Shown in pieces: positions 27,435 to 63,692 of a stretch of DNA of 64,000 bases. Where the stretch lies: the NCBI GenBank assembly GCA_944322725.1, contig CALUPU010000002.1:124001-188000 (forward strand), written 5' to 3'. This DNA is from Candidatus Gastranaerophilales bacterium (GTDB taxonomy: Bacteria > Cyanobacteriota > Vampirovibrionia > Gastranaerophilales > Gastranaerophilaceae). The translations under genes and the position numbers were made by a program. The notes beneath the pieces are model-generated. The model was not told the origin of the DNA, made no database searches, and saw only the letters and a program-made list of their open reading frames with translations. How positions within the stretch are numbered: position 1 is the first letter of the stretch; every line of letters starts with the position of its first letter.

Positions 27435-28604
27435 ATGAAATTTCTTAAAAAACTTTTTAAAAAGACAGTTCCAAAGGTAATAGCAGGTGTACTTATTATC
27501 CTGTTTGCTCTGTCTGTCTTTGTTTTCTGGGGCTGGTATGTAAAACAGGTCAACAAAGTATTCGGACTTTACTATGTATATCAGGGTGATAAGGCATATA
27601 AGGCTCATAAACTGGAAAAGGCTATAAAATTTTATAAAGAAGGACTCAGAAGATATCCGGAGCATTCGCTTGCACGGTGCAACCTCGGTAATATTTATGT
27701 AAAGTATGAGGACTATTTTTCTGCGGTTGATGAGTATGAAGAAGCTCTAAAACACGACCCCAAATTTATTGTGTGCCGTATGAATCTCGGTATAGTTTCT
27801 GCGGAAAAACTCTCTGATTTTGATAAAGCAATAAGAGAATATCAGACTATTATTGATACTAAAAGACTTACTTTTCATATACCTTTGATTTTCGACAGTG
27901 TAAAAAGCACACGTGAGAATAAAACAATAGCCTTGTATAATATGGGGTTGGCATATCGCGGGAAATCAATGCTCATAGGAGAAAAAACACACGCTTCAAA
28001 CGAGTATCTTGAAAAATCTGCTGCGGCATATAAAAAAGCACTTAAACGAAAAAAACATAGTTACAACATCAATTATAACTATGCTCTTGTAAATCATCTC
28101 CTCGGTAATTATAAGGAAGCCGGTCTTAGCTATTGCCGTGCAATAGAAGAAGAGCCAATGGCTTTTGATGCTCATTACAATCTGGCAATTCTGCTTAGAA
28201 AAATCGGCAAGCTGCGCGAATCTCAAGAAGAACTTGAAAAATCTATGCTTATTGTAAATACACAGCAGAATCCGTATATTGCAAAATACATCTTTGATAT
28301 CTATTCACAGGTTGTGGAAAAATCTACTCTTAATGACAGAGTGAGGTCTCCCAGAGGGATTGCACCCGAGTCACAGGTAAAAGAAGGTATGAAAACGCCT
28401 CAGATAGTTTCTGAGGAAGTTGAAAATATCGATGATCCTCTGGGTGTAAATCACATTACATATGTTAATGGCAAAGTTGTGGCGGACTCGGAAGAAGCAG
28501 ACAAGTTTATGAAAAAAAGCTTTAAAAAATGTACGGCAAAAAAAATATTTGAAGACTATGAAGAGGAAGAACTCTATAATGGCAGATACAGCAAAGAATT
28601 CTAA
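27435..28604 (+). CDS. Membrane-anchored TPR protein
   Basis: 389 aa. One transmembrane helix at about residues 15-36 (VIAGVLIILFALSVFVFWGW), then TPR units between ~50 and ~290 (YKAHKLEKAIKFYKEGLRRY, YFSAVDEYEEALKHDPKFIV, YKEAGLSYCRAIEEEPMAFD, HYNLAILLRKIGKLRESQEE). The C-terminal ~90 residues are charged and disordered. The C-terminus overlaps the GGDEF gene by 26 nt, so the two proteins are probably made together and the TPR protein could localise the cyclase. The divergent LOG gene lies upstream. Confidence 0.82.
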   Translation: MKFLKKLFKKTVPKVIAGVLIILFALSVFVFWGWYVKQVNKVFGLYYVYQGDKAYKAHKLEKAIKFYKEGLRRYPEHSLARCNLGNIYVKYEDYFSAVDEYEEALKHDPKFIVCRMNLGIVSAEKLSDFDKAIREYQTIIDTKRLTFHIPLIFDSVKSTRENKTIALYNMGLAYRGKSMLIGEKTHASNEYLEKSAAAYKKALKRKKHSYNINYNYALVNHLLGNYKEAGLSYCRAIEEEPMAFDAHYNLAILLRKIGKLRESQEELEKSMLIVNTQQNPYIAKYIFDIYSQVVEKSTLNDRVRSPRGIAPESQVKEGMKTPQIVSEEVENIDDPLGVNHITYVNGKVVADSEEADKFMKKSFKKCTAKKIFEDYEEEELYNGRYSKEF

Positions 28605-30069
28605 AAGATGTACTGATACCATGGATTTTCTCTGGGAGGTTTCAAGTACTCTTGCCTCTGTCAATGACGCAAAGCTTTTGACTGATGCTTTAAAATCAAT
28701 TTTTGAAAAATATTTCAGTGTGAATAATTTTCAGGTTTATATAAAAGACGAAAATACTTTTACTCTGAGAGATTTTGTTAAAAGCTGGATTATTATTGAA
28801 AAAAATCTTCAGCATGAACTTGTCGAAAATATTTTTAACACACTGAAATCAGTAAACAATAACGGTTTTATTTTGAATAATAAAATCCTTAAATATTCAT
28901 CAAAAAAACTCAATGAACAATTTGATGCATTGCTTACAGATAGCAAAAATCTTATTTACTTCCCTGTATTAAATGAAAATAACCTTGCAGGTGTTATAGA
29001 AATTAACTTTGACAGTATTTCAGAAAGTATTAAAAATATTGATTTCTTGCTGTCTTTAAGAATTGCAGTGTCTCAAATCAGTACGGTTATTGTTAACAAG
29101 ATACTTAACAGGCAGCTTTTGAGGCATATAAAATTTCAAAAAGTAATGAAAAGTATAGCTAAACTCATTGAAACACAGTTTGATCTTGATTATATCCTGC
29201 CGATTATAGGTGAATTAATAGACAGATTTGTGTCAGAACATTTGATTTATATTTTTACAAGGAATGATGAGGGTAAATTTGAGTTGTTCTGGCCTTTGGA
29301 TTGTCAGGATTCAGGTATAATGAAACTTCTGCCAAAACTAAAAGACGATAAAGCCTCTGTTATATCAAAAGACGGCAAAACCGGCTTGTTTGCAATAAGA
29401 AACGAAGAAAAAACAATAGGAGTAATAGCTGCAAGCAGCAACATTGATAAACTTTCTCAGACTGATATAGATTATCTTTCAAAATTGAGTGTGCAGGCTT
29501 CTGTTACAACACAGAGAGCAAATTCCTATGCACAGGTTTTGAAGTATGCAACACTTGACGCTCTGACAGGTCTTAATAACAGAAGACAGTTTGAAACCCG
29601 TCTTAAACAGGAAACTGCAAATGCAAAAAGAAATAAAAAATCTTTGTGTTGCATAATGCTTGATATTGATTATTTCAAACACGTTAATGACACATGGGGG
29701 CACAGTGCAGGTGATTGTGTTTTGAAAAATGTAGCAAAAATAATAATCGGTGAACTGCGTGAGTATGATATTGCCTCCCGCTACGGCGGTGAAGAGTTTT
29801 GTATACTTTTGCCCGACACTAAGATAAAAGAAGCTGTTTTTGTTGCACAAAGATTGAGAAAAGCTGTTGAAAAGGCGGATATTAATATCTCAGAGGATCA
29901 GGTGCTCGGTGTTGATACTCTGAATGTAACAATAAGCGTTGGTGTGAGTGAATATGATGATGATTGCGATGTGCCCGAAAAACTTCATCAGACAGCTGAT
30001 ATTGCTCTGTATGAGGCAAAACGCAGGGGCAGAAACCGTGTTGTTGTCTATGATGAGGCACTGGAGTAG
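28579..30069 (+). CDS. GAF-type sensor diguanylate cyclase (GGDEF)
   Basis: 496 aa from ATG at 28579; an earlier in-frame start at 28549 is less supported. Two N-terminal GAF-like regions (about 10-160 and 185-320) precede a GGDEF domain at about 330-490. The active site reads GGEEF in SRYGGEEFCILLPD, and DALTGLNNRRQFETRLKQET plus DIDYFKHVNDTWGHSAGD show a complete metal- and GTP-binding site, so it should make c-di-GMP. An inhibitory RxxD site is not evident upstream of GGEEF. No EAL partner is in the window; the PilZ-like C-terminus of the giant exoprotein is the only other c-di-GMP related fold seen. Confidence 0.9.
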   Translation: MADTAKNSKRCTDTMDFLWEVSSTLASVNDAKLLTDALKSIFEKYFSVNNFQVYIKDENTFTLRDFVKSWIIIEKNLQHELVENIFNTLKSVNNNGFILNNKILKYSSKKLNEQFDALLTDSKNLIYFPVLNENNLAGVIEINFDSISESIKNIDFLLSLRIAVSQISTVIVNKILNRQLLRHIKFQKVMKSIAKLIETQFDLDYILPIIGELIDRFVSEHLIYIFTRNDEGKFELFWPLDCQDSGIMKLLPKLKDDKASVISKDGKTGLFAIRNEEKTIGVIAASSNIDKLSQTDIDYLSKLSVQASVTTQRANSYAQVLKYATLDALTGLNNRRQFETRLKQETANAKRNKKSLCCIMLDIDYFKHVNDTWGHSAGDCVLKNVAKIIIGELREYDIASRYGGEEFCILLPDTKIKEAVFVAQRLRKAVEKADINISEDQVLGVDTLNVTISVGVSEYDDDCDVPEKLHQTADIALYEAKRRGRNRVVVYDEALE

Positions 30070-49109: not shown

Positions 49110-51194
49110 TTATAAGTTTTCTTTTTTTTGTTTTTTAGGTCTGGGATTTCTTCCGGCAACAATTCTTCCTATATCAGGAGCACATGTTATGTCAAAATGG
49201 AATCTTCCCATTTTCTGGTCAACATCATATTTGTTGTTAAGCCCGAATCCCCAGTAAAAACGCGCGGCAAGGTCGCGTTTTAGATTTACTCTTAAACCCA
49301 GACCCCAACTCATAAGAAAATCACCGCTGTCAACAGCCTGACCGTCTTTGTATGGGAAAACCATACCGTTGTCCATAAACACAGCACCTTTTATCATTTC
49401 TCTCGGGTAAATATAACCCAGCCTGTCTGAACCGATAGCTTTTGGCAGAAACGGAAGAGGTGTTATAATTTCAGCACTGGCAAGGTAGCCGCTTTTACCG
49501 AGAAGAAGACCTTCCGAGTATCCTCTTACTGTTGAAAGACCGCCGATTTGGAATTGTTCCATCCAGGGAAGTCTGTCTTGCGGAGAGTACTGACCAGAAA
49601 CTCTGAATTGACCTATTATTCCGTGTCCGAAGTCATGCAGCCTTGTGATATTTCCTTCATATTTGAAGAAATCTTCGTCGCCGCCCAGTGCTTCAAATCC
49701 GACAGAACCGTAATGACCCGTGTACCAGATACCGCGTTCAGTATCTTTTTTTGCATTGAAGCCCTGCGTAACGGAGAATGTGCCGAGACTTGGCAATTTT
49801 ACGCCTGATATGTCTGTAGTTGAGCGTTTAATGCTGCTTGCTGTGTAGGAACTGAGATTAAAACCCTGTTTGTCGATTAAAGGATGTGTTAAGTAAACGC
49901 TGTAAACCTGTGAAGTACCGCCGATACCGAATTGTCTTAACGGGCCGTTGACAACTGATATGTTACCTGCTGAAACTGAAGCACCGAGTCTGGTTCCGTA
50001 TTTATTAATCGGAAAATTGTAATCAGCAAAGCCCACTCTGTTGCCGCTTCCGAGGTATCCGCCCAGCGACATTCTGTCGCGGTGACCGAATAAACTGTCG
50101 GCAGAAAGCATACCTCCCCATCTTGTTGTACCGATGGTTTGGCGGCCCTGATTGTCGGTCATAAATGCTATATGAAACGGAAACGGGTCTTCGGCATTCA
50201 GTGTAATATCTGTCTGACCCTGCTCTTCACCGGCAGAAAGACCGACTTTTAATTTTATAGGATTGTTGTTGTTGAATTTTATTACATCTTGTTCCAGTTC
50301 GCTGATTTTTAAAAGGTCACCGGGTTTTGGCGCAACGCGGCTTTCGATGTATCCTGTTTTAGTCCAGCGGTTATTTTTTACGGTAACTTTGCCTACCGTA
50401 CCTTCAAACAAACCGATTTTTAAAACACCGTTTGTAATGTCCTGCGGAGGCAGATAGGCTTTTGATGTAGCATAATCACCGAGAATATAGCACCTTGTAA
50501 TGCTGTTGACTACCTTGTGGATATCTTCAATTGTAACCGGCTGTGAAAGCAGAGGAGAAGCGAGTTTTTGCAGTTCTTCTTCCGTAAATACACGGGATGC
50601 AGGAAATTCAACTTTTGTAATAGTTGCTCTTACAGCGTCAGAATCTCCGGGTTTTGAAAGATTGTCTTCTACAATAACAGGCGGTCTGCCTGATTTTTTG
50701 TCTTTAAATTCTGCATACAGATTCAGCTTTTTCTCTTTGTTTTCCTGAGGAAGAGGATTTAACTCTGCCTGCAGCTTTTTGCTTTCATAGAGTTTGTATT
50801 TTTGCTGTTCCGGTGTTGTTTCAAGATAATCAGGCGCCGGTTTTGGTGCGGCTGCCTGCACGTGTTTCTCAGGCTGAATAGGAGTCTGATTATTTCCGGT
50901 TGCTTTTTCTGGGGATGAGTCGGAATTGTTTGAATTTGTTGTATTGTACTGCACAGCGGGTACAGGCACGGGAACTGTTGATGCTGTTTTAATTACCTGT
51001 TGTTGAACTTTGGGTTCAGCTTTTTGTACCTGTTTCACGGGCTTATCAGCAACGGTCTGAGGTTTAGGAATGGAAGTTTTGGCAGGTAAAGGTACAGGTA
51101 CTGCATTTTTTGCATTTCCCGCTGCACTCTCCGCTGCTATGGTAAAATTTTGACTTAATAAACAAAGGCTTATTAAGAATACTAATTTTTTCAT
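49110..51194 (-). CDS. TpsB outer-membrane transporter (ShlB/FhaC family)
   Basis: 694 aa from ATG at 51194 (an in-frame TTG at 51206 is possible). Signal peptide at ~1-20 (LVFLISLCLLSQNFTIAAES), then a long periplasmic linker rich in K, P, Q and V (~25-170), a POTRA-type region with ASPLLSQPVTIEDIHKVVNS and RCYILGDYATSKAYLPPQDI, and a 16-strand barrel of ~370 aa. The VRGY motif of the conserved loop L6 is intact in IGGLSTVRGYSEGLL. TpsB proteins export a partner exoprotein that has an N-terminal TPS domain, here the divergent 51384 gene. The linker is much longer than in ShlB/FhaC. Confidence 0.9.
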   Translation of the reverse strand: MKKLVFLISLCLLSQNFTIAAESAAGNAKNAVPVPLPAKTSIPKPQTVADKPVKQVQKAEPKVQQQVIKTASTVPVPVPAVQYNTTNSNNSDSSPEKATGNNQTPIQPEKHVQAAAPKPAPDYLETTPEQQKYKLYESKKLQAELNPLPQENKEKKLNLYAEFKDKKSGRPPVIVEDNLSKPGDSDAVRATITKVEFPASRVFTEEELQKLASPLLSQPVTIEDIHKVVNSITRCYILGDYATSKAYLPPQDITNGVLKIGLFEGTVGKVTVKNNRWTKTGYIESRVAPKPGDLLKISELEQDVIKFNNNNPIKLKVGLSAGEEQGQTDITLNAEDPFPFHIAFMTDNQGRQTIGTTRWGGMLSADSLFGHRDRMSLGGYLGSGNRVGFADYNFPINKYGTRLGASVSAGNISVVNGPLRQFGIGGTSQVYSVYLTHPLIDKQGFNLSSYTASSIKRSTTDISGVKLPSLGTFSVTQGFNAKKDTERGIWYTGHYGSVGFEALGGDEDFFKYEGNITRLHDFGHGIIGQFRVSGQYSPQDRLPWMEQFQIGGLSTVRGYSEGLLLGKSGYLASAEIITPLPFLPKAIGSDRLGYIYPREMIKGAVFMDNGMVFPYKDGQAVDSGDFLMSWGLGLRVNLKRDLAARFYWGFGLNNKYDVDQKMGRFHFDITCAPDIGRIVAGRNPRPKKQKKENL

Positions 51195-51224
51195 CCTAAT
51201 CAACAATTCCTACAAGTACTTTAA

Positions 51225-51254: not shown

Positions 51255-51383
51255 CAAAAGTTAACAAAATTTGTTCTGTTAAGACGGTTATTTGAAGAAA
51301 ATCCTCCAAATTGTTTACTGCATATATTAATTAAGGTAGTATAATAGTAGAAAGTGATAGATTGGGGAGCAGTTTGGACAAGT

Positions 51384-54300
51384 ATGCAAAAGAATAAAAG
51401 AGGCAAAAAAGATATTGATTTTTTAAAGCTTTTTAAAAAATCACTTGCGTTGTCTTTGACCGTTGCCATATTTGGCATTCAGACATCTTATGCTACCAAT
51501 ATCACAGCAGGCGGCGGATATAATACCAATGTCGAAACCAACGGTAATACGACCAATATCACGGGCGGTCTTATAAACAACGGAACGGGATTCCATCACT
51601 TTACGGATTTTGATGTTTCAAGAGGGGATATAGCTAACCTTATTTTTGCGCAGGGGGCAGACAGATATGTAAACCTTGTTGATAAACAGGTAAGCATTTA
51701 CGGTATTTTTAATTCAATTAAAGGCGGAAATATCGGCGGTGATGTAATATTTGTTTCTCCTCTGGGGATGATTGTCGGAGCTTCCGGAGTAATGAATGTC
51801 GGAAGCCTGCAGACAATTACACCAGTACAGGGTACTTATAATTCTTTGCTTGACCTCGGTACAGGTATTTCCTATGAAAATAATATTCAAAATTTAAAAT
51901 CAGATATTAATAATGTTTCAATGACCAATATTCAGGGTAAAATTTTTGCGTCCGATTCCATTGATTTGTCTGATGGCAGAAATTTGATGATTGGCTCTAA
52001 TGCATCTCTTGTAACGGGGTTTAATGAAAACGGCTTTGCAAAAACCTCTGTAACAGGGTTCAATATGAATGATATTGTTAACTCTGACGGAATTGTTGCT
52101 GCCGAATATATGTCTGGCAGCGGCGGTGATATCAAGCTGGCTGCTGCTACAGTTAATGCAACAGGCGGTGTAATACAATCGCAGGGCAATGTCTCTTTTG
52201 ATGCTTATGACGGGGCAATAACTGTCGGCTCAAAAGTAGTATCCGACGGCAATGTCGACATAGGTGTAAATTCTTCTGCTACTACAAGAAAAATTACTAT
52301 AAATAATGATATAACAGCGCTCGGAGATGTAAATGTAACTACACAAAACAGAGATGTTGTTCAAAATACAGGCTCAAATATCAGTGCTTCAAAAGTTAAT
52401 ATTTCTTCGGGCAAACTCGGTATTGACGGTAATATTAAGGCGCAAGACGGTATTGATTTCAGAGCAACGGAATTTACTCAGGGCGATGATTCTTCTATTG
52501 TTAATAAAAACAGCGGAAATATTTCTATTTCTGCCACCTCTGATATTTCGTCAAATAAAATTACAAACGAAGCTGTAAACGGAAACATAAATATTGCAGG
52601 CAGTGAGATTCTCCTTAAAGACACAATAAAAACAAATTCGGGAAGTATAGAAGTTTCGGCTACATCAGATATTTCACAGAGTGATGACAGCTTTAATGGA
52701 TTTGATTCCGCAAAAAACCTGAATATTACTGCAGACTATAATGTAGGCTCTTCTTCTCAATCATTGAACCTTAACGTAGCAGGTAATGTTAATGTCTATG
52801 GTGCAGGTTCTGACGTTTATCTTGCAAGCAAAGATTCCGATTTAAGAATTGAAAATATTTCAAACGCTCAGAATGTTTCACTTGACAGTTCAAAAGCAAT
52901 AAATGTTTCTAACTCTATAGATGCAAATGATTCTGTCAATATAACTTCACAGGAAGGCTTTAATCAGTCGGAAAGTTCAACAATTAGCGTTCTTGGCGGA
53001 AATGGCGATGTATCAATAAAAAATAACGGTAGTGGCGATGTTAATATCAATAATGTTAATAACTACGGAAACGGCAATGTTGTAATAGAAAATACAAACA
53101 GCGGTTCTGCACCTACTCCGGGAAATGTTAATTTCAGCGGTAATGTATATACACAGGGAGAAGTTTCTGTTTCATCAGACGGTTCAATCTTACAGGCTAA
53201 TAACGGTGCTATTATTGATGCACAGGGGAATGTCAATTTATCCGCACAGGATAGTATCGGTACAAAAGAACAGACCGTTGTAATCTCTTCAGGAGGAAGC
53301 GTTATTGCTGATGCTGTTAACGGCGGTGTTAATCTGACAGGCGACAATACCGATATTGAACTCGTTAATATCAATGCAGGCACTGATTACAATATTACTG
53401 TTACCGGCAATAATGATATTATCTTTAATAAAGATTTGTCCAACGTCAACGGTGATTTGTCTTTTGCCGTTGATAACGACTTGAACATTGATTCAAGCAT
53501 TACTGCAAGCGGAGATGTTTCTCTTACGTCGAATAAAGGTGACGTTATATTAAACGCGCTTGTTTCTTCTACAGGAGAAAGCGTTGATTTGAACGCTCAA
53601 GGCGGTATTTATCAGGGTGACTCTTTTGATAATGTGGCAATTAATGCAAATAAAGATATAACACTAAATGCACAAACCGGAAATGTCGGTGCAGAAGGCA
53701 ACTCTTTGCAAATGACAGCAGGCGGAGTTGTTGATATAGAAGGCGGAAATATTTATATCCAGAGTCCCGGCAGCTTGAATATTGCAAATATTAACTCCTC
53801 CAAGGATGCACCTGATACTGTTGTAAATATTACAACCACCACGACTGATAACGGTAATATTAATTTTTCGGGTGCAATAAAAGGTTCTGATGTTAATGTA
53901 AATGCAGCGCAGGGAATCTCACAGTCAGTCGAAGGCAAGACTATTGACGCTTCCGGCAATCTCAGCTTAACTGCGCAAAACGGAAGCATAGGCGAAACGA
54001 ATCAAGCACTTAATTTTTCCGCGGAGGCTGTTTCTGCAAGCGCTTCAAAATCTGTTGTGCTGACAGGTATTGATACGGATATCAGAACTTCACAAATTCA
54101 GGCACAGGAAAATATTGATTTATCTACAAAAATTACATCAGAGGAATCTGAAAAAGGCAGTATAATTGTAGAAAATGATTTAATTGCGCAGGACGGTTAT
54201 ATCAAACTGGATTCTGCTAAAAATCTTGAAATTAATAATAATCTGTCAGCAGGTAATTCAATTACTCTTAATGCGACAGGCGGTATTACTCAGAGTTCCG

Positions 54301-57300
54301 ATGCTTCTATTACTAGCGGTACTTCTCAAAGTGCAGCGCAGGGCAGTGGAAATATTCTTATCTCAAACAACGGAACAGGAGACATTGTGCTCCATGATGT
54401 GACCTCTTCAAAAGGTGATATAAGCGTTGTTAATAATGCCGATGGGGCGGATATAATCTTAAATTCCGTGCTCCAATCTACTGATTCTGATATTATTTTA
54501 AATTCAGAAAATAATATAATTCAGACTTCAAAGGACTCTGCTTCATTGCTTGCTGCGGGAGATATTGTAGTAAATGCGATAAATGCAGGTTCACAAGCGG
54601 GTGAACTTCTTCTGAATGCGGGAGGCTCGCTTTATTCAACCTCTGACAATCTTTATGTAAGAGATACGGACGGGGATTTGACGCTTGGTGTTTTGAATAT
54701 TACAGATAACGCGAATATTACCGCGCAGGGAAATATTATACAGGATGATGCCTCAAGAGATTCAATTGTCTCTCAAAACGGTGTTATAAATCTTGTCAGC
54801 ACAGGCGGAGATATAGGCGCAGATAATGGTTTATCTTTAAATGTCGGAGGCAGGGTAAATGCTGATGCTTCAAATATTTACCTTAAAGGTACAAATGTAT
54901 CAACCGGACTTGTTAATGCGGATAATGCCGTAACTATTGATACAACGGCTTCAAACGGTACTGTTAATATTAAAGATAAAATAACTGCAGGAAGTGATAT
55001 TAATATTAATTCCGCAAAAGATGTTACACTGAATGCCGGTGATGCTCCTGTACTTAACTCTACGGGAGGAAATGTTATTATCACTGCGGTGAATGACATT
55101 TCTCAAACAGGAACTGCAGAATCTATTCTTGCGGCAGGCAATATTTCACTTACAAGCACAACAGGCTCTGTCGGTACTCAAGAACAATCAATGGTTGTAA
55201 AAACAACGGCAGGAAGTCTGGGTGCTAATGCGGCTGCGGGTTCTGTTTATTTAACCGGTATTGATACAAATATTTCTTCTTCTGATATTACTGCAGCAAA
55301 AGATATTGATTTAACCGTTACCGGAAGCGGAAATATTCTTATTGACGAAATTTTAAATACAAATGACGGGTATATTAAACTCACCACGGACAATGGAATA
55401 GATATCAACAACCTTATTTCTGCGTCAAAAGATGTCACTATTGATGCAAAGGGCGGTTCTGTCACACAGGCAGAAGGACTTGATAAAGCGATTTCTGCAG
55501 GCGGAAATCTTTCAATCAGTGCACATGGTGATATCGGTGGTGCAGAAAATCAGCACCTGTCTGTTACAGCAGGAGGCAAAGCTGATTTAACAGGTGATAA
55601 TGTTTATTTGAAAAGCCCTGAAAGTAATTTGACACTTGGTTCAGTAAACTCGTCCGGTGTGGTGGATATTAAGACAGAAACTTCCGGTAATATCAATCTT
55701 GACGGATTAGTTACAGGATCTCAAGTTTCTCTGAATGCTGCAGATGGAATTTATCAAAGTGCACAGGGCAAAACAATTGATACACAGGGTTCTCTTTCGC
55801 TTATTGCCAATAAAGAAAGCATAGGACAAAAAGGCAGTGCAATCAGCTTTTCAGCCGGTTCTGTTTCTGCGGATGCAGCAAAATCCGTAGTGCTGCTCGG
55901 TGAAAATACGGATATTAACACCCAATCGGTCAGAGCCACTGAAAATATTGACCTTACTACAACAGGTACCGGTAAAATTACTATTTCAAATGAGCTTTCT
56001 ACACGGAACGGATACATAAATCTTGATTCCGCACAGAATCTTGACATACAGCACAACTTGAGCGCAGGTGAGTATATTACTCTGAATGCAAACGGCGGTA
56101 TTGTCCAGCATGAAGGTGCTAAGATTGAGAGCGGTACTTCTTCTGCCGTAACAGACGGAAGTATTACCGTTACAAACTCCGGTACAGGCGGTATACAGCT
56201 TTCAGATGGTATTACATCACATAAAGGCAATATTACCGTTACAAATAATGCTTCCGGTGAAAATGCAAATATAGAAATAACCAGTGCAGTTGCATATGAC
56301 GGTACGGTAAATATTACAAATGGTTCTCAAAATAATGATATTATCCTGGGTTCGATTGTGTCAGACGGACAAAACGGTGAAGTAAACATTGATTCGGCAG
56401 GACAAATTCTTGGCAGTGGTAGCATTTTTTCTTCCGGTGATGTTAACCTCAATGCCCTATCAAATATAGGAGCAAGCAGCAGTTTGCTCGGCATTTCTGC
56501 ATCGGGTAATGTAAATGCAGCGGGTGATAATATTTATTTAGGCGGTGATTCCGGTGCATTTAATGTTGGTGACATAGCTGCAAACAATACTGTACGAATA
56601 GAAAATACCGGTACGGATATAAATATTAATGGCAGCATTCAAGGCAGTGATGTTATTTTGAAGGCTCAGAATAATATACTTCAAACATCGGCAGGTAAAA
56701 CAATTACCGCTGATAATCTTGAACTTTTTGCGGCAAACGGCAATATCGGAAGTATCGGACAGGCAATAGCTTTTGAAGCAGGAACTGTGAAAGCCGAAGC
56801 CGTTAACGGCTCTGTAATATTAAACGGAATAGATACAACAATAAATACAGGCTCAATAAAAGCAGGCTCCAATATAGACTTGAGCACTACAGGTTCGGGC
56901 GATATTAATGTAGACGAAGCAATAAATGCAAACGGATATATTGCGCTTAATGCCGCTGATAACCTTAATGTAAATCAAGGTATAACTTCAAGTGATACAA
57001 TCACTCTTACTGCAGCTGATAATGTACATGTTAACTCAACTGTACAGTCGCAAAATGATTTGTCCGTAAATACGCAGGGCGGAGATATTAGTTTAGGTGC
57101 ATTGCTTGAGTCAACAACAGGTTCGGTTGAACTTAATTCCGGCGGAAATATTTCACAAACTTTTGACGGAAAAGCGGTTCAGGCTGCAAACGGTATTACT
57201 ATTGATGCTGTAGGCGATATTGCTTCTGCGGGAAATGAACTTCAACTTAATACCTCAGGTGTTCTTAATGCAGATGCTTCTAATATCTATATAAAAAATA

Positions 57301-60300
57301 ATGAAGGCGGTTTGAATATCGGGCTTGTCGATGCAGAAAACAATATAAAACTTTCTGCTGCCGGTAATATAACCTCTGCTTCTTCTTCCTCTTCTGTAAA
57401 CGCCGGCGGAAATATTGATTTAAATGCGGCAGACGGCTATAATATCGGCACATCTTCATCCGACAGCTTAAAGGTTAATGCTGACGGTGTTGTTAATGCA
57501 AAAGCAGACAATATTTATCTTTCTTCGGATAATGATTTGAACACTGGAATTATTACTGCGGCTTCGGTTGCTGATATAAGAACAACAGGTACGGACAAAA
57601 ATATAAATATAACTGATTTGATTAAAGCTTCCGATGTATATCTGGAGGCATCGGGAAGTGTGCTTCAAAACAGTGTGCTTGCAAAAACTATCGAAACAAA
57701 CAACCTGACACTCATTGCTAATAACGGTAGTATAGGTGCAACAGGCAATGCAATTGATTTTTCCGCAACAGGACTTTTAAGAGCAGATGCGTCCGAAGCA
57801 GTTGTGTTAAACGGTGTAGGAAGAGATATTGATACTTCCTCTATCAATGCGGGCACAAGTATTGACCTTTCAACAGAAGGTTCGGGTAAAATCATAGTTT
57901 CCAGCAACTTAACAGCAAATAACGGATATATCAGTCTTAATGCTGCTGACGGACTGGATTTGAAAAATTACTATCTTACAGCATCTGATTATATCAATCT
58001 TGTTGCACAGTCAGGCGACATTCTGCTCAATTCAATGTTAAATGCAGGTACATATATAACAATTGATTCTGCGGGTGATATTTTACAGAGCGTAGATGCG
58101 GTTACTCTTACGGCAGGTACTGATATAACCCTTAAAGCAGGCGGTACTGTAGGTGAACTTAACAATGCTCTTCAATTGAAAGCGCAGGGCAATGTTAATG
58201 CGCAGGGTGCGGATATTTATTTGACAAGCCCTGAAACAGACATTAATCTGGGAAATATTAATGCATCGAATAATATTTCAATAAAAACAGAAACCAATAA
58301 CAGCAATATAAATATAAACGGAACAATTACAGGTAATAATATAACACTTGATGCCAATAATAATATCAGCCAAACATCACAGGAAAAAACAATAACTGCA
58401 TCAAATGACCTGAATCTTATATCGAGAAACGGAAATATCGGAACTACCGACAATGCAATAATATTTGAAGCGGGAACAATAACAGCAGAAGCACTCAACG
58501 GCTCTGTTGTGTTAAACGGAATAGACACAACAATCAATACCGGCTCAATAAAAGCAGGCTCCAATATAGACTTGAGTACTACAGGCTCCGGTGATATTAA
58601 TGTTGACAAAGAAATCAACGCAAACGGATACATCTCTCTTGACGCAGCAGATAATCTCAATGTTAATGAAAAAATAACTTCCAACAGTGAAATCACACTG
58701 GCAGCCTCTGATAAAGTGCTTCTCGGTGCGCTTGTAGAATCAACAAACGGCAATATAACAGTAAATGCAAATTCCGGAAGTATTGAGCAAAACTTTAGCG
58801 GTGTTGCTTTAAAATCCGGTAATGATATTACATTATCAGGTGCACAAATAGGTAGTGAATCACAGTATATTAATACTGATGCAGCAAATAAAGTTAACGC
58901 TGACGGTACGAATATTTATATAGAAAGCGACAGAGCAGTATTTAATATAGGTAATATAAATACCAATCCTGATATTGTGAATCAGACAGTCAACCTTCGT
59001 TCCAATACGGGTGATGTTAACTTTAAGAATACGGTTAACGGCAATATCGTTAATATTAATACGGCAAAAAATGTAACACAGGATGCTTCATTAAATAAAG
59101 CAATAGACGCAACTACTGTTAATTTTACTGCTCAGAACGGAAATATAGGTGCAGAAAATAATGCGATTGATATTAAAGCCTCTGACAGAGTGAATATTTC
59201 ACAGGCACAGAATGCTTATATAAACGGGGTCGAAGCAGACCTTAATACAGGTAATATCAATGTAGACTCAAATGCTAAAATTACTTCTGATAACGGCATA
59301 CATCTTGTTGATAAACTTACGGCACAGAATGTTAACTTAAGTGCACAGGGTGATATTACCCAGGACAGTGAACTTGCCAAATCAATTGAGGCACAGTCTC
59401 TTATTTTAAACAGTGCTTCCGGTGATATAGGTAAAACAGACAACGCAATAGCTTTCTCTGCAAATTCATTGTCTGCAAATGCACAGAACGGCTCTGTTGT
59501 ATTAAAGGGTATTGATACGGATATTTATACAAGTTCAATTGAAGCAGGAAAGAATATTGACCTTAGTACAACAGGTACCGCAGGCATAACAATTGATGAA
59601 GACACTTTATCTGCGAACGGTTATATCCGTCTGGATTCGGCACAGGGCTTGAACATAAATAAAAATGTAACTGCCTCCGATTATGTTGAACTTATTGCGA
59701 ATAACGGTAGTGTTCTTCTAAATTCCGTTATCAGCGGTACGGATGTGACAGTCAGTGCTGCTGACGGAATAACACAAACAGGCGGCGAACTTTTAAGTTC
59801 CGGTGTTAACGGCGTAACCGTTTCAAATTCTGCATCAGGCGGTATAACATTGACTGATGTAACGGCACAGAACGGTAATATTTCTGTTGCCAACAATGCT
59901 TCCGGTGATGCGGATGTTGTTTTAGGTACTTTAAGTGCCGGCGGTAATATTGATGTAGTAAACAACGCAAACGGTGAACTTATACTTAATGACACTCTTA
60001 CAGGTTCAGATATTTCCCTGACTTCTCAGAGGAATATTGTTCAGACAACAGATAAACTTGGTGTAAAAGCATCAAACAATCTTACTCTTTCTGCAGGTGA
60101 TTCTATCGGTACGCAGTCTCAATCATTGATTGTTAATGCGGGCAAAGATGTCAGCATTGAGGCTTCTGATATTTATCTTGAAAGCCCTGATTCCGACTTG
60201 AATATAGTAAGCATAAACGCAAACAGAGAGGATAAAACTCTTGGTGCTGTTGAGATTTCTACGAGCGGTTCAACAGGAGATATAACACTCGGGGATTCTA

Positions 60301-63300
60301 TAGTTGCGGATGAAATATCTCTATATTCAGCCGGTTCAGTAAGTGCAATGGATAACCTTTCTGCGAATACTGTTTCAATTACCGCAAATGACAATATATT
60401 AACTAACGGTAATGTTACGGCACAAGACGATATTAGCATAATAGGCGGCTCTATAACTCAAAATGCCAATACAATCATTTCTTCTCAGAACGGTGATATT
60501 TCATTAAGTGCGATGAATGGTGATATAGTTCTTAACGGTGATATCTCAAGCACAAACGGCAGAGTTTCTGTTTCTAATACTTCAACAGGGAATGCTTCTG
60601 TTACTGTTAATAACGTAAGTGCAGGCGACTTTTTCGCAATTTCTAATAATGCGGACGGACTCGTAACCGTAAACGGAACTTTGACCGGTGGCAATAATTC
60701 TCTTCTTAACGCACAAAACTCGGGTTCAGAGTCAGGTATAGTTGTTTCGGAAAATGCCGTAATTAACAGTAACGGTACATTTTCAATGTATAACGCGGGA
60801 GACAAAGGAATTCTTCTTGACGGTAAAATTAATAATGCTCAAACCGAAGGCTCTTCTGTTACTGTAGTAAATGATAAAGGCAGTATTCATATTAAAGCTG
60901 ATGTTGATAATGGGGAATCTAATTCATTTAATGTCCAAAACAATGGAACTGACGCAGACGGCAAAGGACTTGTTTTTGAAAACGGTATTATAAATAACTA
61001 CGGAACACTGGTATTAGAAAATAATGCAGGCTCTATGACACTTGACGGTGTTATTAATGCATATCTGGGTTCTGATAACAGCTTTGTAAACGGTTCTGAT
61101 TCGGATTTCCATATCAACGGTATATTTGAAAACAGAGGCAATACAGTAACATTTGAAAACAAGGGCGCAGGAAGCCTTATTGTTGACGAAGATGCTGTGC
61201 TTTCCGTATACAGTATACAGGACAGCGGCAATGTTTACACCGGAGTTTTGAACCTTCTTAATAATTCAACCACCACAAATGGCGGCGGTGTAACAATTAA
61301 CGGAACAATTAACAACGGCAGTAATATGATTTCCGGCGGTATATTGAATATAGTTAATGATACAAACGGCGGTGCAGGCGATTACGGTATTCTGATTTCA
61401 GATACAGGTGTTATAAATAACTATGCGGAATTGAATATAAATAACAATAATACAAACGGAAACGCATCAGGCGGAATTGTTATCAACGGAAATATTACGG
61501 GTGACAAAGGAACGATTTTGACTCCGTCTGCTGGTGCACCTATACCATCCAACAGTGTAAATATTTCAAATAACGCTCAATCTGCACAAAGCGGTATAGA
61601 ATTCGGTACAACATCAAATGTTGATGTCAAAGGCAATAAGCTGAATATCACAAATAACGGTCAGAAGGGTATTACCTTTAAAGAAGGTTCATCTGTCAGC
61701 AATACTGATACATTGACAGTCAACAACCTTGCAGGCTCTTTAAATATAGAAAATAATGCAACTGTTAAATCAGGCTCTGATTTGACCTTGATAAATTCTC
61801 AGGCAGGCAATTCCGTAAACATAGACGGTACTGTCCACGGTAAAAAGGTTACTGTTCAAAGTACCGGCTCTAATGTAAATATTGCCCATAACAATGAAGA
61901 AGGAAATATTATTTCAGACTCTGACGTTACGATTAATGTTACTGGCGGTGATATTTTAAATCATTCCGATTCGCAGACTGCTCTTGAAAATGCGCAGGGT
62001 ATAAAAGCAGCAGGCAATATTGAACTTAATGCTTCAAATATCGGCGAGACAGATTCTTCGTTGAGTGATATTGTGACCAACGGTTTTGACAACCTGAATC
62101 CTGACAATGCAATACATTTTACAGCTGGCGGAAAAGTTACTGCTAATGCAGAAAATAATTTGAATCTCCTTGCTATGAACGGAGATATGAATATAGACAC
62201 CGTCAAAGCAGGAAATGCTGTTTTGAGTGCTTTAAACGGCAACATAACAGCATCATCAATAGATACAACAGGTAATTTGTATATGTATGCTAAAGCAGAC
62301 AGCGCTGATATTATAGCAGACAGCGTGAAATCTGCTCTTCTTAGCGCTGAAGCCGGCAGAAATATTGATATAAATAGTCCTCAAAATCTTGATATAGAGT
62401 CAATGTTAAGCAGAAACGGCTCAATTAATCTGGATATAGACGGTGATTCTTATATCAGAGAGATTGCTGCTGCAAAAGATATTACAATTAATGCAGATGG
62501 TGAAAAACTGACTATAGTTAACCTTGGAAGAGTCGAACGTAATGACGGAATTATTCCTGAAACAGTCAACCTTACGGTAACTGATTCGCGTAACACATCC
62601 GGCAGCAAAAACAGTAAACTCGATATCTACAACGGCTATGTGAGAGATAAAGTAACCCTTAAGGCTGATACTATTACAGCACAGGCTTATGATATTTCTG
62701 ATTCTGCACAAAAAGGCGATATCAGAAAAGACAGCAAGTACGGTATAGATGCATCAGGATTCCATAATGCTAATACAAAAGGCGAATTGCTCGAATTTGA
62801 TATTCAGGGTGCAAACTATTCTCAAAAAGATGCCGGCTCAAATCCGAATAACCCGTATTACAAACCCGATGAGAATGATAAACACGCTTTAAATGTTCAT
62901 CTTACATTAGGTGATTCTGTGGGTGATGCACAGTACGGTGCAAACTTCAAGAAGCTTTATTCTGACTACGTGTTTATTGATTCTATAAATAAAGCAAATC
63001 CGGATGCTTTCTCTAAAATTGTTGTAGAAAGCGGCATTATAGGTGAATACGGCATATTCCGAAACAATAATCTTCGCCTTGATATAAATAACAATAATGC
63101 AACGGAATCCATAGTGGATGCTTATCCTATAAACAAACATTACGATGATAAAGCGGATAAAACAGTAAGTAACAATACATCATTCTATATGGAAATGGGT
63201 GACTCCATTAATATTGATGTGCCTTATAATCCCGATGTGCCTGTTGATCCGATAACAGGAAAAATTTATAACCCCCACAGAAATGTCGAAGATCCTGAAC

Positions 63301-63692
63301 TTACTGAAAAGACAAAAGCCGCTACTGCAAAAGATGCGGATAACTCTGCTGTAAAAGCTGATTCATCCACAGGAATCCGCCAGATTAACTGGGTAATCAG
63401 AGACAAGGATAACGAAATACTCGGTGCATCAGAACATGTTGAAAAACCTGTAATACAAACATTGCTAGGTATTTCTAAAAAAGGATTACTTGTTGTTGCT
63501 GATAAAAATTCGCCGGAACTTAAAAAAGGTGAAAAACTTCATATTGATATGAAATACAAAGATGTTGCATTTAATGTTGACGGTAAAGTAAAAGATATTA
63601 ACGGCAATGTTGTGGAAATATCTTTTGTAAATACAGATAAACTTACTTCAACGATTATGCTTTTCTTAAGTATGTATCAGGAAAATCTGTAG
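51384..63692 (+). CDS. Giant TpsA exoprotein (filamentous haemagglutinin/LktA-like adhesin) with PilZ-like C-terminus
   Basis: 4102 aa. ATG at 51384 (GGAC 5 nt upstream); a GTG ten codons earlier is possible. Signal: basic n-region (KNKRGKKDIDFLKLFKKSLA) and hydrophobic core, cleavage after SYA near residue 35. Residues ~38-150 form the TPS/haemagglutinin activation domain (GGYNTNVETNGNTTNITGGL, FHHFTDFDVSRGDIANLIFA, GGDVIFVSPLGMIVGASGVM), recognised by TpsB. Then ~3300 residues of short G/N/S/D-rich strands, the pattern of a right-handed beta-helix, with at least seven copies of a module that contains GSVVLNGIDT. No cysteine is apparent in this region. The final ~95 residues resemble a PilZ domain. 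Secreted adhesin or surface fibre is the likely role. Confidence 0.88.
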   Translation: MQKNKRGKKDIDFLKLFKKSLALSLTVAIFGIQTSYATNITAGGGYNTNVETNGNTTNITGGLINNGTGFHHFTDFDVSRGDIANLIFAQGADRYVNLVDKQVSIYGIFNSIKGGNIGGDVIFVSPLGMIVGASGVMNVGSLQTITPVQGTYNSLLDLGTGISYENNIQNLKSDINNVSMTNIQGKIFASDSIDLSDGRNLMIGSNASLVTGFNENGFAKTSVTGFNMNDIVNSDGIVAAEYMSGSGGDIKLAAATVNATGGVIQSQGNVSFDAYDGAITVGSKVVSDGNVDIGVNSSATTRKITINNDITALGDVNVTTQNRDVVQNTGSNISASKVNISSGKLGIDGNIKAQDGIDFRATEFTQGDDSSIVNKNSGNISISATSDISSNKITNEAVNGNINIAGSEILLKDTIKTNSGSIEVSATSDISQSDDSFNGFDSAKNLNITADYNVGSSSQSLNLNVAGNVNVYGAGSDVYLASKDSDLRIENISNAQNVSLDSSKAINVSNSIDANDSVNITSQEGFNQSESSTISVLGGNGDVSIKNNGSGDVNINNVNNYGNGNVVIENTNSGSAPTPGNVNFSGNVYTQGEVSVSSDGSILQANNGAIIDAQGNVNLSAQDSIGTKEQTVVISSGGSVIADAVNGGVNLTGDNTDIELVNINAGTDYNITVTGNNDIIFNKDLSNVNGDLSFAVDNDLNIDSSITASGDVSLTSNKGDVILNALVSSTGESVDLNAQGGIYQGDSFDNVAINANKDITLNAQTGNVGAEGNSLQMTAGGVVDIEGGNIYIQSPGSLNIANINSSKDAPDTVVNITTTTTDNGNINFSGAIKGSDVNVNAAQGISQSVEGKTIDASGNLSLTAQNGSIGETNQALNFSAEAVSASASKSVVLTGIDTDIRTSQIQAQENIDLSTKITSEESEKGSIIVENDLIAQDGYIKLDSAKNLEINNNLSAGNSITLNATGGITQSSDASITSGTSQSAAQGSGNILISNNGTGDIVLHDVTSSKGDISVVNNADGADIILNSVLQSTDSDIILNSENNIIQTSKDSASLLAAGDIVVNAINAGSQAGELLLNAGGSLYSTSDNLYVRDTDGDLTLGVLNITDNANITAQGNIIQDDASRDSIVSQNGVINLVSTGGDIGADNGLSLNVGGRVNADASNIYLKGTNVSTGLVNADNAVTIDTTASNGTVNIKDKITAGSDININSAKDVTLNAGDAPVLNSTGGNVIITAVNDISQTGTAESILAAGNISLTSTTGSVGTQEQSMVVKTTAGSLGANAAAGSVYLTGIDTNISSSDITAAKDIDLTVTGSGNILIDEILNTNDGYIKLTTDNGIDINNLISASKDVTIDAKGGSVTQAEGLDKAISAGGNLSISAHGDIGGAENQHLSVTAGGKADLTGDNVYLKSPESNLTLGSVNSSGVVDIKTETSGNINLDGLVTGSQVSLNAADGIYQSAQGKTIDTQGSLSLIANKESIGQKGSAISFSAGSVSADAAKSVVLLGENTDINTQSVRATENIDLTTTGTGKITISNELSTRNGYINLDSAQNLDIQHNLSAGEYITLNANGGIVQHEGAKIESGTSSAVTDGSITVTNSGTGGIQLSDGITSHKGNITVTNNASGENANIEITSAVAYDGTVNITNGSQNNDIILGSIVSDGQNGEVNIDSAGQILGSGSIFSSGDVNLNALSNIGASSSLLGISASGNVNAAGDNIYLGGDSGAFNVGDIAANNTVRIENTGTDININGSIQGSDVILKAQNNILQTSAGKTITADNLELFAANGNIGSIGQAIAFEAGTVKAEAVNGSVILNGIDTTINTGSIKAGSNIDLSTTGSGDINVDEAINANGYIALNAADNLNVNQGITSSDTITLTAADNVHVNSTVQSQNDLSVNTQGGDISLGALLESTTGSVELNSGGNISQTFDGKAVQAANGITIDAVGDIASAGNELQLNTSGVLNADASNIYIKNNEGGLNIGLVDAENNIKLSAAGNITSASSSSSVNAGGNIDLNAADGYNIGTSSSDSLKVNADGVVNAKADNIYLSSDNDLNTGIITAASVADIRTTGTDKNINITDLIKASDVYLEASGSVLQNSVLAKTIETNNLTLIANNGSIGATGNAIDFSATGLLRADASEAVVLNGVGRDIDTSSINAGTSIDLSTEGSGKIIVSSNLTANNGYISLNAADGLDLKNYYLTASDYINLVAQSGDILLNSMLNAGTYITIDSAGDILQSVDAVTLTAGTDITLKAGGTVGELNNALQLKAQGNVNAQGADIYLTSPETDINLGNINASNNISIKTETNNSNININGTITGNNITLDANNNISQTSQEKTITASNDLNLISRNGNIGTTDNAIIFEAGTITAEALNGSVVLNGIDTTINTGSIKAGSNIDLSTTGSGDINVDKEINANGYISLDAADNLNVNEKITSNSEITLAASDKVLLGALVESTNGNITVNANSGSIEQNFSGVALKSGNDITLSGAQIGSESQYINTDAANKVNADGTNIYIESDRAVFNIGNINTNPDIVNQTVNLRSNTGDVNFKNTVNGNIVNINTAKNVTQDASLNKAIDATTVNFTAQNGNIGAENNAIDIKASDRVNISQAQNAYINGVEADLNTGNINVDSNAKITSDNGIHLVDKLTAQNVNLSAQGDITQDSELAKSIEAQSLILNSASGDIGKTDNAIAFSANSLSANAQNGSVVLKGIDTDIYTSSIEAGKNIDLSTTGTAGITIDEDTLSANGYIRLDSAQGLNINKNVTASDYVELIANNGSVLLNSVISGTDVTVSAADGITQTGGELLSSGVNGVTVSNSASGGITLTDVTAQNGNISVANNASGDADVVLGTLSAGGNIDVVNNANGELILNDTLTGSDISLTSQRNIVQTTDKLGVKASNNLTLSAGDSIGTQSQSLIVNAGKDVSIEASDIYLESPDSDLNIVSINANREDKTLGAVEISTSGSTGDITLGDSIVADEISLYSAGSVSAMDNLSANTVSITANDNILTNGNVTAQDDISIIGGSITQNANTIISSQNGDISLSAMNGDIVLNGDISSTNGRVSVSNTSTGNASVTVNNVSAGDFFAISNNADGLVTVNGTLTGGNNSLLNAQNSGSESGIVVSENAVINSNGTFSMYNAGDKGILLDGKINNAQTEGSSVTVVNDKGSIHIKADVDNGESNSFNVQNNGTDADGKGLVFENGIINNYGTLVLENNAGSMTLDGVINAYLGSDNSFVNGSDSDFHINGIFENRGNTVTFENKGAGSLIVDEDAVLSVYSIQDSGNVYTGVLNLLNNSTTTNGGGVTINGTINNGSNMISGGILNIVNDTNGGAGDYGILISDTGVINNYAELNINNNNTNGNASGGIVINGNITGDKGTILTPSAGAPIPSNSVNISNNAQSAQSGIEFGTTSNVDVKGNKLNITNNGQKGITFKEGSSVSNTDTLTVNNLAGSLNIENNATVKSGSDLTLINSQAGNSVNIDGTVHGKKVTVQSTGSNVNIAHNNEEGNIISDSDVTINVTGGDILNHSDSQTALENAQGIKAAGNIELNASNIGETDSSLSDIVTNGFDNLNPDNAIHFTAGGKVTANAENNLNLLAMNGDMNIDTVKAGNAVLSALNGNITASSIDTTGNLYMYAKADSADIIADSVKSALLSAEAGRNIDINSPQNLDIESMLSRNGSINLDIDGDSYIREIAAAKDITINADGEKLTIVNLGRVERNDGIIPETVNLTVTDSRNTSGSKNSKLDIYNGYVRDKVTLKADTITAQAYDISDSAQKGDIRKDSKYGIDASGFHNANTKGELLEFDIQGANYSQKDAGSNPNNPYYKPDENDKHALNVHLTLGDSVGDAQYGANFKKLYSDYVFIDSINKANPDAFSKIVVESGIIGEYGIFRNNNLRLDINNNNATESIVDAYPINKHYDDKADKTVSNNTSFYMEMGDSINIDVPYNPDVPVDPITGKIYNPHRNVEDPELTEKTKAATAKDADNSAVKADSSTGIRQINWVIRDKDNEILGASEHVEKPVIQTLLGISKKGLLVVADKNSPELKKGEKLHIDMKYKDVAFNVDGKVKDINGNVVEISFVNTDKLTSTIMLFLSMYQENL
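54000..59640 (+). repeat. Repeated modules inside TpsA
   Basis: A module with the core (G/K)SVVL(N/T)GIDT(D/T)I followed by a helix-free strand run such as GSNIDLSTTGSGDI and an N-GYI-L-N/D-A-A-D/Q-L motif is found at about 54050, 55240, 55885, 56810, 57795, 58500 and 59490. Spacing varies (640-1190 bp), so units were rearranged after duplication. The copies at 56805-56941 and 58497-58633 are most alike, with identical runs such as GSIKAGSNIDLSTTGSGDIN. Confidence 0.75.

Follow-up and report, generated by a model that had tools for sequence, protein, structure and literature searches.

Why would a very large protein, predicted to be secreted, end in a fold that belongs to intracellular signalling? 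PilZ domains are the textbook receptors of cyclic di-GMP (c-di-GMP) in the cytoplasm. The question is raised by a stretch of 64,000 bp from a Candidatus Gastranaerophilales bacterium (contig CALUPU010000002.1, positions 124,001 to 188,000), referred to below as the window, in which an exoprotein of the two-partner secretion (TPS) type carries a predicted PilZ domain at its extreme C-terminus. This domain belongs to a family of apparently exported PilZ domains in which both c-di-GMP-binding motifs are conserved, except in the lineage of the window protein. All data presented were computed from sequences, mostly of metagenome assemblies. The features of the open reading frame (ORF) are the following:

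51354..63692, plus strand: TpsA-type exoprotein ORF, 4112 amino acids (aa) from a GTG codon, or 4102 aa from the ATG at 51384 (Met is codon 11)
51384..51494, plus strand: predicted signal peptide MQKNKRGKKDIDFLKLFKKSLALSLTVAIFGIQTSYA, read by eye, with the same pattern in 59/59 complete large relatives
after the signal peptide to about 52130, plus strand: TPS-like N-terminal domain, likewise read by eye
63220..63362 (limits approximate), plus strand: linker with Pro/Asp between the beta-helix and the PilZ domain, assigned from the linker composition of the whole family
63363..63689 (Pfam core 63450-63641), plus strand: predicted exported PilZ domain, C-terminal, from profile and predicted fold
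63375..63389, plus strand: degenerate RxxxR site IRQIN, Ile and Asn replacing the two Arg, from alignments
63468..63485, plus strand: degenerate (D/N)xSxxG motif GISKKG, from sequence and alignment

The isolated last 107 residues match the Pfam PilZ profile (PF07238) with 24.1 bits (cut-off 22.5; E 4.6e-5). The score drops to 18.8 bits within the full-length protein, and a six-frame search of the genome places PilZ above the cut-off at 63450-63641 (23.5 bits). All members (43/43) of the domain alignment set A3 match PilZ at E ≤ 0.01. The AlphaFold model of the window domain, built with 42 relatives, has a mean pLDDT (per-residue confidence) of 83.5 and features seven strands and then a helix at the C-terminus, that is a barrel plus helix. 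Its best fold matches in the PDB (Foldseek) are Alg44 PilZ domains with bound c-di-GMP (probability 1.00, TM score 0.66), followed by BcsA, MapZ, PA4608 and other PilZ proteins; the first 25 matches are all PilZ or PilZ-containing, with the exception of one uncharacterised Legionella protein. The model of a canonical relative, of lower confidence (68.3), gave similar PilZ-type fold matches, while the sequence-based PDB search yielded weak matches only. By profile and model the C-terminus is thus predicted to be a true PilZ barrel. Comparison within the genus (to L005 and L006) gave a non-synonymous divergence (dN) of 0.28 and a synonymous divergence (dS) of 1.6-2.7, as expected for a domain that evolves under purifying selection.

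The two signatures of c-di-GMP-binding PilZ domains are degenerate in the window protein. Ile and Asn occupy the Arg positions of RxxxR, and the (D/N)xSxxG site reads GISKKG. RxxxR is lacking in all 14 copies of the window's own lineage (0/14). Since purifying selection persists in a lineage devoid of the motif, the domain must have a use that is independent of RxxxR. Outside this lineage both motifs are intact in 107/107 TPS-fused copies and in 10 of 11 small ORFs, the sole exception being a gene fragment. Among 24 canonical representatives sharing less than 60% identity (mean pairwise identity 36%) both RxxxR arginines are kept in 24/24, and their columns rank third and fourth in conservation. 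In the phylogenetic tree the exported domains form a single clade relative to the cytoplasmic PilZ domains of the same genomes (support 100/98.9). Within this clade the window lineage nests among the motif-bearing copies, beside members with RxxxR. The motif was therefore lost secondarily. In this one lineage (D/N)xSxxG, RxxxR and a conserved Gly are altered together, a joint change suggesting that the motifs serve a putative ligand and not the fold. Retention of the motifs across the rest of the exported family is more surprising than their loss here.

A sequence-only reading of this DNA had anticipated a 4102-aa TPS exoprotein ending in a PilZ fold without a visible RxxxR arm, and named fold prediction, a PilZ profile search and a survey of other Gastranaerophilales TpsA C-termini as ways to examine it. 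The ORF and the missing arm are confirmed, the predicted barrel retrieves PilZ structures, the profile score exceeds the Pfam cut-off and the same domain recurs throughout the family (see below). Neither of the two outcomes that it had named as refuting, a fold other than a PilZ barrel and a C-terminus without relatives, was observed. The GISKKG that it proposed as a (D/N)xSxxG-like motif is degenerate.

A search for relatives, carried out with the window domain against 118 related genomes, gave matches in 53 of them, most of which lie where very long ORFs end. A survey of the taxonomic family with a 16-member profile then detected exported PilZ domains in 178/306 genomes (173/294 of good quality) and 26/36 genera. 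All matches listed from samples taken across the order, class and phylum belong either to this family or to a single genus of another family in the order. A contig scan queried with the window domain by itself retrieved no relatives; the contig search was made with the canonical subset. Among the named records that carry the domain, Candidatus Gastranaerophilales and Melainabacteria assemblies predominate. Overall, these searches point to a Gastranaerophilales-specific, exported PilZ family. Two records labelled Brachyspira sp. RUG745 (L126) and Fusobacterium sp. CAG:439 (L105) also carry a Gastranaerophilales exported PilZ and are probably mislabelled assemblies. Tandem arrays of two or three TPS-PilZ genes were seen in four cases (L130, L136, L143 and L157).

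Export is suggested by two sets of signals, read from sequence, hydropathy and pattern rather than with a signal-peptide predictor. The complete large ORFs examined all have a hydrophobic N-terminal core (59/59) and 52/59 display a (F/I)SPNG-type TPS motif. In addition, nine small ORFs of about 170-250 aa combine a signal-peptide-like start with a PilZ domain bearing both motifs (L018, L019, L049, L050, L055, L122, L134, L139 and L154). Five of these nine standalone forms sit directly after a TPS-PilZ gene and two (G077 and G082) adjoin a gene for TpsB, the outer-membrane partner of TPS systems. The YcgR-like cytoplasmic PilZ proteins of the same genomes have no signal-peptide-like start.

The window protein itself starts with a signal-peptide-like segment, and its body is rich in repeats. 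It was not matched by a TPS-domain profile (Haemagg_act or another TPS model) in Pfam or NCBIfam, and a DUF2345 match in its body scored below the Pfam cut-off. The TpsA label is accordingly an architecture-level assignment that draws on the motif pattern and on the adjacent TpsB gene, the latter recognised by Pfam:

49110..51206, minus strand: divergent TpsB transporter with Pfam POTRA_2 and ShlB matches, a member of the PilZ-associated TpsB clade

The TpsB proteins of PilZ systems, including this one, are often longer and carry a C-terminal tail of variable length past the last barrel strand. Another POTRA_2 match in the same genome was considered as a second TpsB and rejected, as it reads as a BamA-like protein. 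In this genome an open-ended ORF of 4532 aa (contig C1, L167 1..13598) lies upstream of a BamA-like gene. In a different genome (L043, G054:C17, 11421..12685) a short TpsB fragment adjoins a C-terminal TpsA-PilZ fragment of 243-265 aa, an arrangement suggestive of a deletion, or of a break in the assembly, inside a TPS pair.

TpsB-type matches are present in 42/42 genomes tested, and TpsB adjoins the TPS-PilZ gene in at least 11 sampled cases. In a tree of 27 TpsB proteins, 13/13 sampled TpsB of PilZ-carrying systems or genomes lie on one side and 10 from PilZ-free genomes lie opposite. Genomes G053 and G077 encode several TpsB each: the PilZ-adjacent ones fall in the first group and the remaining ones in the second. 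This split is the main evidence that the domain may act together with TpsB. The segment preceding the domain is rich in Pro and Asp across the family (Pro 11.5% versus 1.9% in the protein body), and 120/132 domains are free of Cys.

These observations are explained most economically by a role in retention or anchoring, one of the functions proposed by the sequence-only reading. The best explanation, to which we assign a near-even probability, is that the exported PilZ barrel is a folded plug at the C-terminus, sits beneath the TpsB pore and so keeps the adhesin attached to the cell. The protein would be exported by Sec and its beta-helix would cross the outer membrane through the neighbouring TpsB, while the PilZ barrel would fold in the periplasm and be unable to pass the pore. 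The flexible Pro/Asp linker would then thread TpsB, keeping the adhesin at the cell surface. In most family members the putative plug retains a c-di-GMP-type pocket and may respond to a ligand; in the window protein and its lineage the pocket is lost, leaving what would be a constitutive anchor. Several observations weigh against this explanation. The branch that separates the 13 PilZ-type TpsB from the doubtful G050 has 76% support (100 with G050 included), and many TPS-PilZ genes coding for 1000-2000 aa have no neighbouring TpsB. Standalone forms cannot act as plugs in cis. Finally, a plug alone does not account for the two c-di-GMP motifs in all 107 other TPS-fused copies: given their conservation, either the domain meets a cyclic dinucleotide at some point before or after its export, or it binds another ligand.

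In a tentative alternative the canonical exported PilZ is an extracytoplasmic receptor of c-di-GMP or a similar nucleotide, and ligand binding controls whether the adhesin is retained or released; the window protein would be a receptor-dead offshoot. This overlaps with the periplasmic plug and adds a ligand to it, an addition that we consider possible but rather unlikely. It is favoured by the presence of both motifs in all 24 canonical representatives despite their low identity, by the concerted change of motifs and Gly in the sole lineage without RxxxR, and by the about 7 GGDEF matches found per genome. The sequence-only reading had also pointed to a GGDEF cyclase in the window, which is indeed encoded there:

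28549..30069, plus strand: GGDEF protein (GGEEF), one of 7 GGDEF matches in the genome, with no signal peptide apparent by eye

However, c-di-GMP is regarded as cytosolic (PMC8472254), and none of five standalone GGDEF proteins examined has a signal peptide, for which reason a secreted GGDEF partner was rejected. Extended to the whole lineage, an extracytoplasmic PilZ family might bind c-di-GMP or another cyclic dinucleotide and gate TPS adhesins both in cis, from the C-terminus, and in trans, through the standalone forms; we consider this possible but doubtful. For the window protein the c-di-GMP-gated release once suggested is not supported, because the ligand residues are lost in its lineage.

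Motif conservation could also be accounted for without periplasmic c-di-GMP if the ligand were already bound in the cytoplasm, ahead of export: with the ligand in place the fold would resist Sec, the C-terminus would stay inside and the adhesin would remain tethered until c-di-GMP falls. Many members do have long linkers. Such an arrangement is nevertheless expected to jam Sec, and the nine standalone relatives with signal-peptide-like N-termini, together with the link to a clade of outer-membrane TpsB, indicate a post-Sec site. The mechanism is inapplicable as c-di-GMP gating to the window protein, which has no motifs. We find it quite improbable; the standalone relatives and the TpsB link also disfavour the earlier suggestion that the domain stays in the cytoplasm. 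It is likewise improbable that the domain reaches the cell surface as a module for surface or adhesin-adhesin interaction, its motif binding another phosphate-rich ligand. The signal-peptide-like N-termini agree with export, and RxxxR is the phosphate-binding arm of PilZ domains, but a surface module is not favoured by where the domain sits, preceded by a linker and at the extreme C-terminus or close to it, nor by its tie to one TpsB clade. The LapG/LapD route of LapA and CdrA, a known c-di-GMP-controlled retention of a TPS adhesin (PMC4694147, PMC5422565), deserves hardly any credence: the LapG family Peptidase_C93 was found in 0/12 genomes searched, so that this known route does not apply there, barring a different protease in place of LapG.

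The periplasmic plug has counterparts among known TPS proteins. In HMW1 and HxuA a small globular C-terminal domain, closed by a disulfide, remains in the periplasm and locks the protein in TpsB (PMC5422565). The C-terminal tail of CdrA, which is cleaved by LapG (PMC5422565), also lies in the periplasm; the CdrA hook is described in PMC8472254. These anchors and the exported PilZ alike are small globular domains that end the exoprotein; however, the latter is a mostly Cys-free barrel. Inability to form disulfides is not supported as the explanation, VKOR being present in 12/12 genomes. The plug would take the role of the disulfide knot in HMW1 and HxuA or of the FhaB prodomain of Bordetella, a C-terminal part retained in the periplasm (PMC8263021) that holds the adhesin. 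The prodomain differs by its size (about 1200 residues), its processing by DegP and CtpA, and in not being known as a PilZ fold. With ExlA/ExlB and CdrA/CdrB the system may share c-di-GMP-linked release of a TPS protein. There the effect of c-di-GMP is indirect (via LapD/LapG for CdrA, by an unknown route for ExlA), whereas here the PilZ fold is on the exoprotein itself. With the PilZ family (Alg44, BcsA, YcgR) the window domain has in common the profile match, the barrel with C-terminal helix and the best structural match to c-di-GMP-bound Alg44; RxxxR and (D/N)xSxxG are shared by the canonical exported relatives and absent from the window copy. It differs in being predicted to be exported instead of cytoplasmic, in its fusion to a TPS exoprotein and in forming a clade separate from the cytoplasmic PilZ domains of the same genomes.

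A search of open-licence papers for PilZ domains that are exported, secreted or periplasmic, or that occur in Melainabacteria, found nothing relevant, and an earlier description may exist elsewhere. The route by which c-di-GMP gets to ExlA and other TPS proteins is an open question (PMC8472254). If a large exported PilZ family has an intact site, either cyclic dinucleotides have a role beyond the cytoplasm, or evolution turned a signalling fold into a mechanical anchor and kept its pocket for another ligand. Having lost the pocket naturally, the window lineage provides a built-in control. The retention of the binding residues in nearly all relatives of the window copy, at the far end of giant adhesins, points to a novel means by which such proteins may be held at the surface or released.
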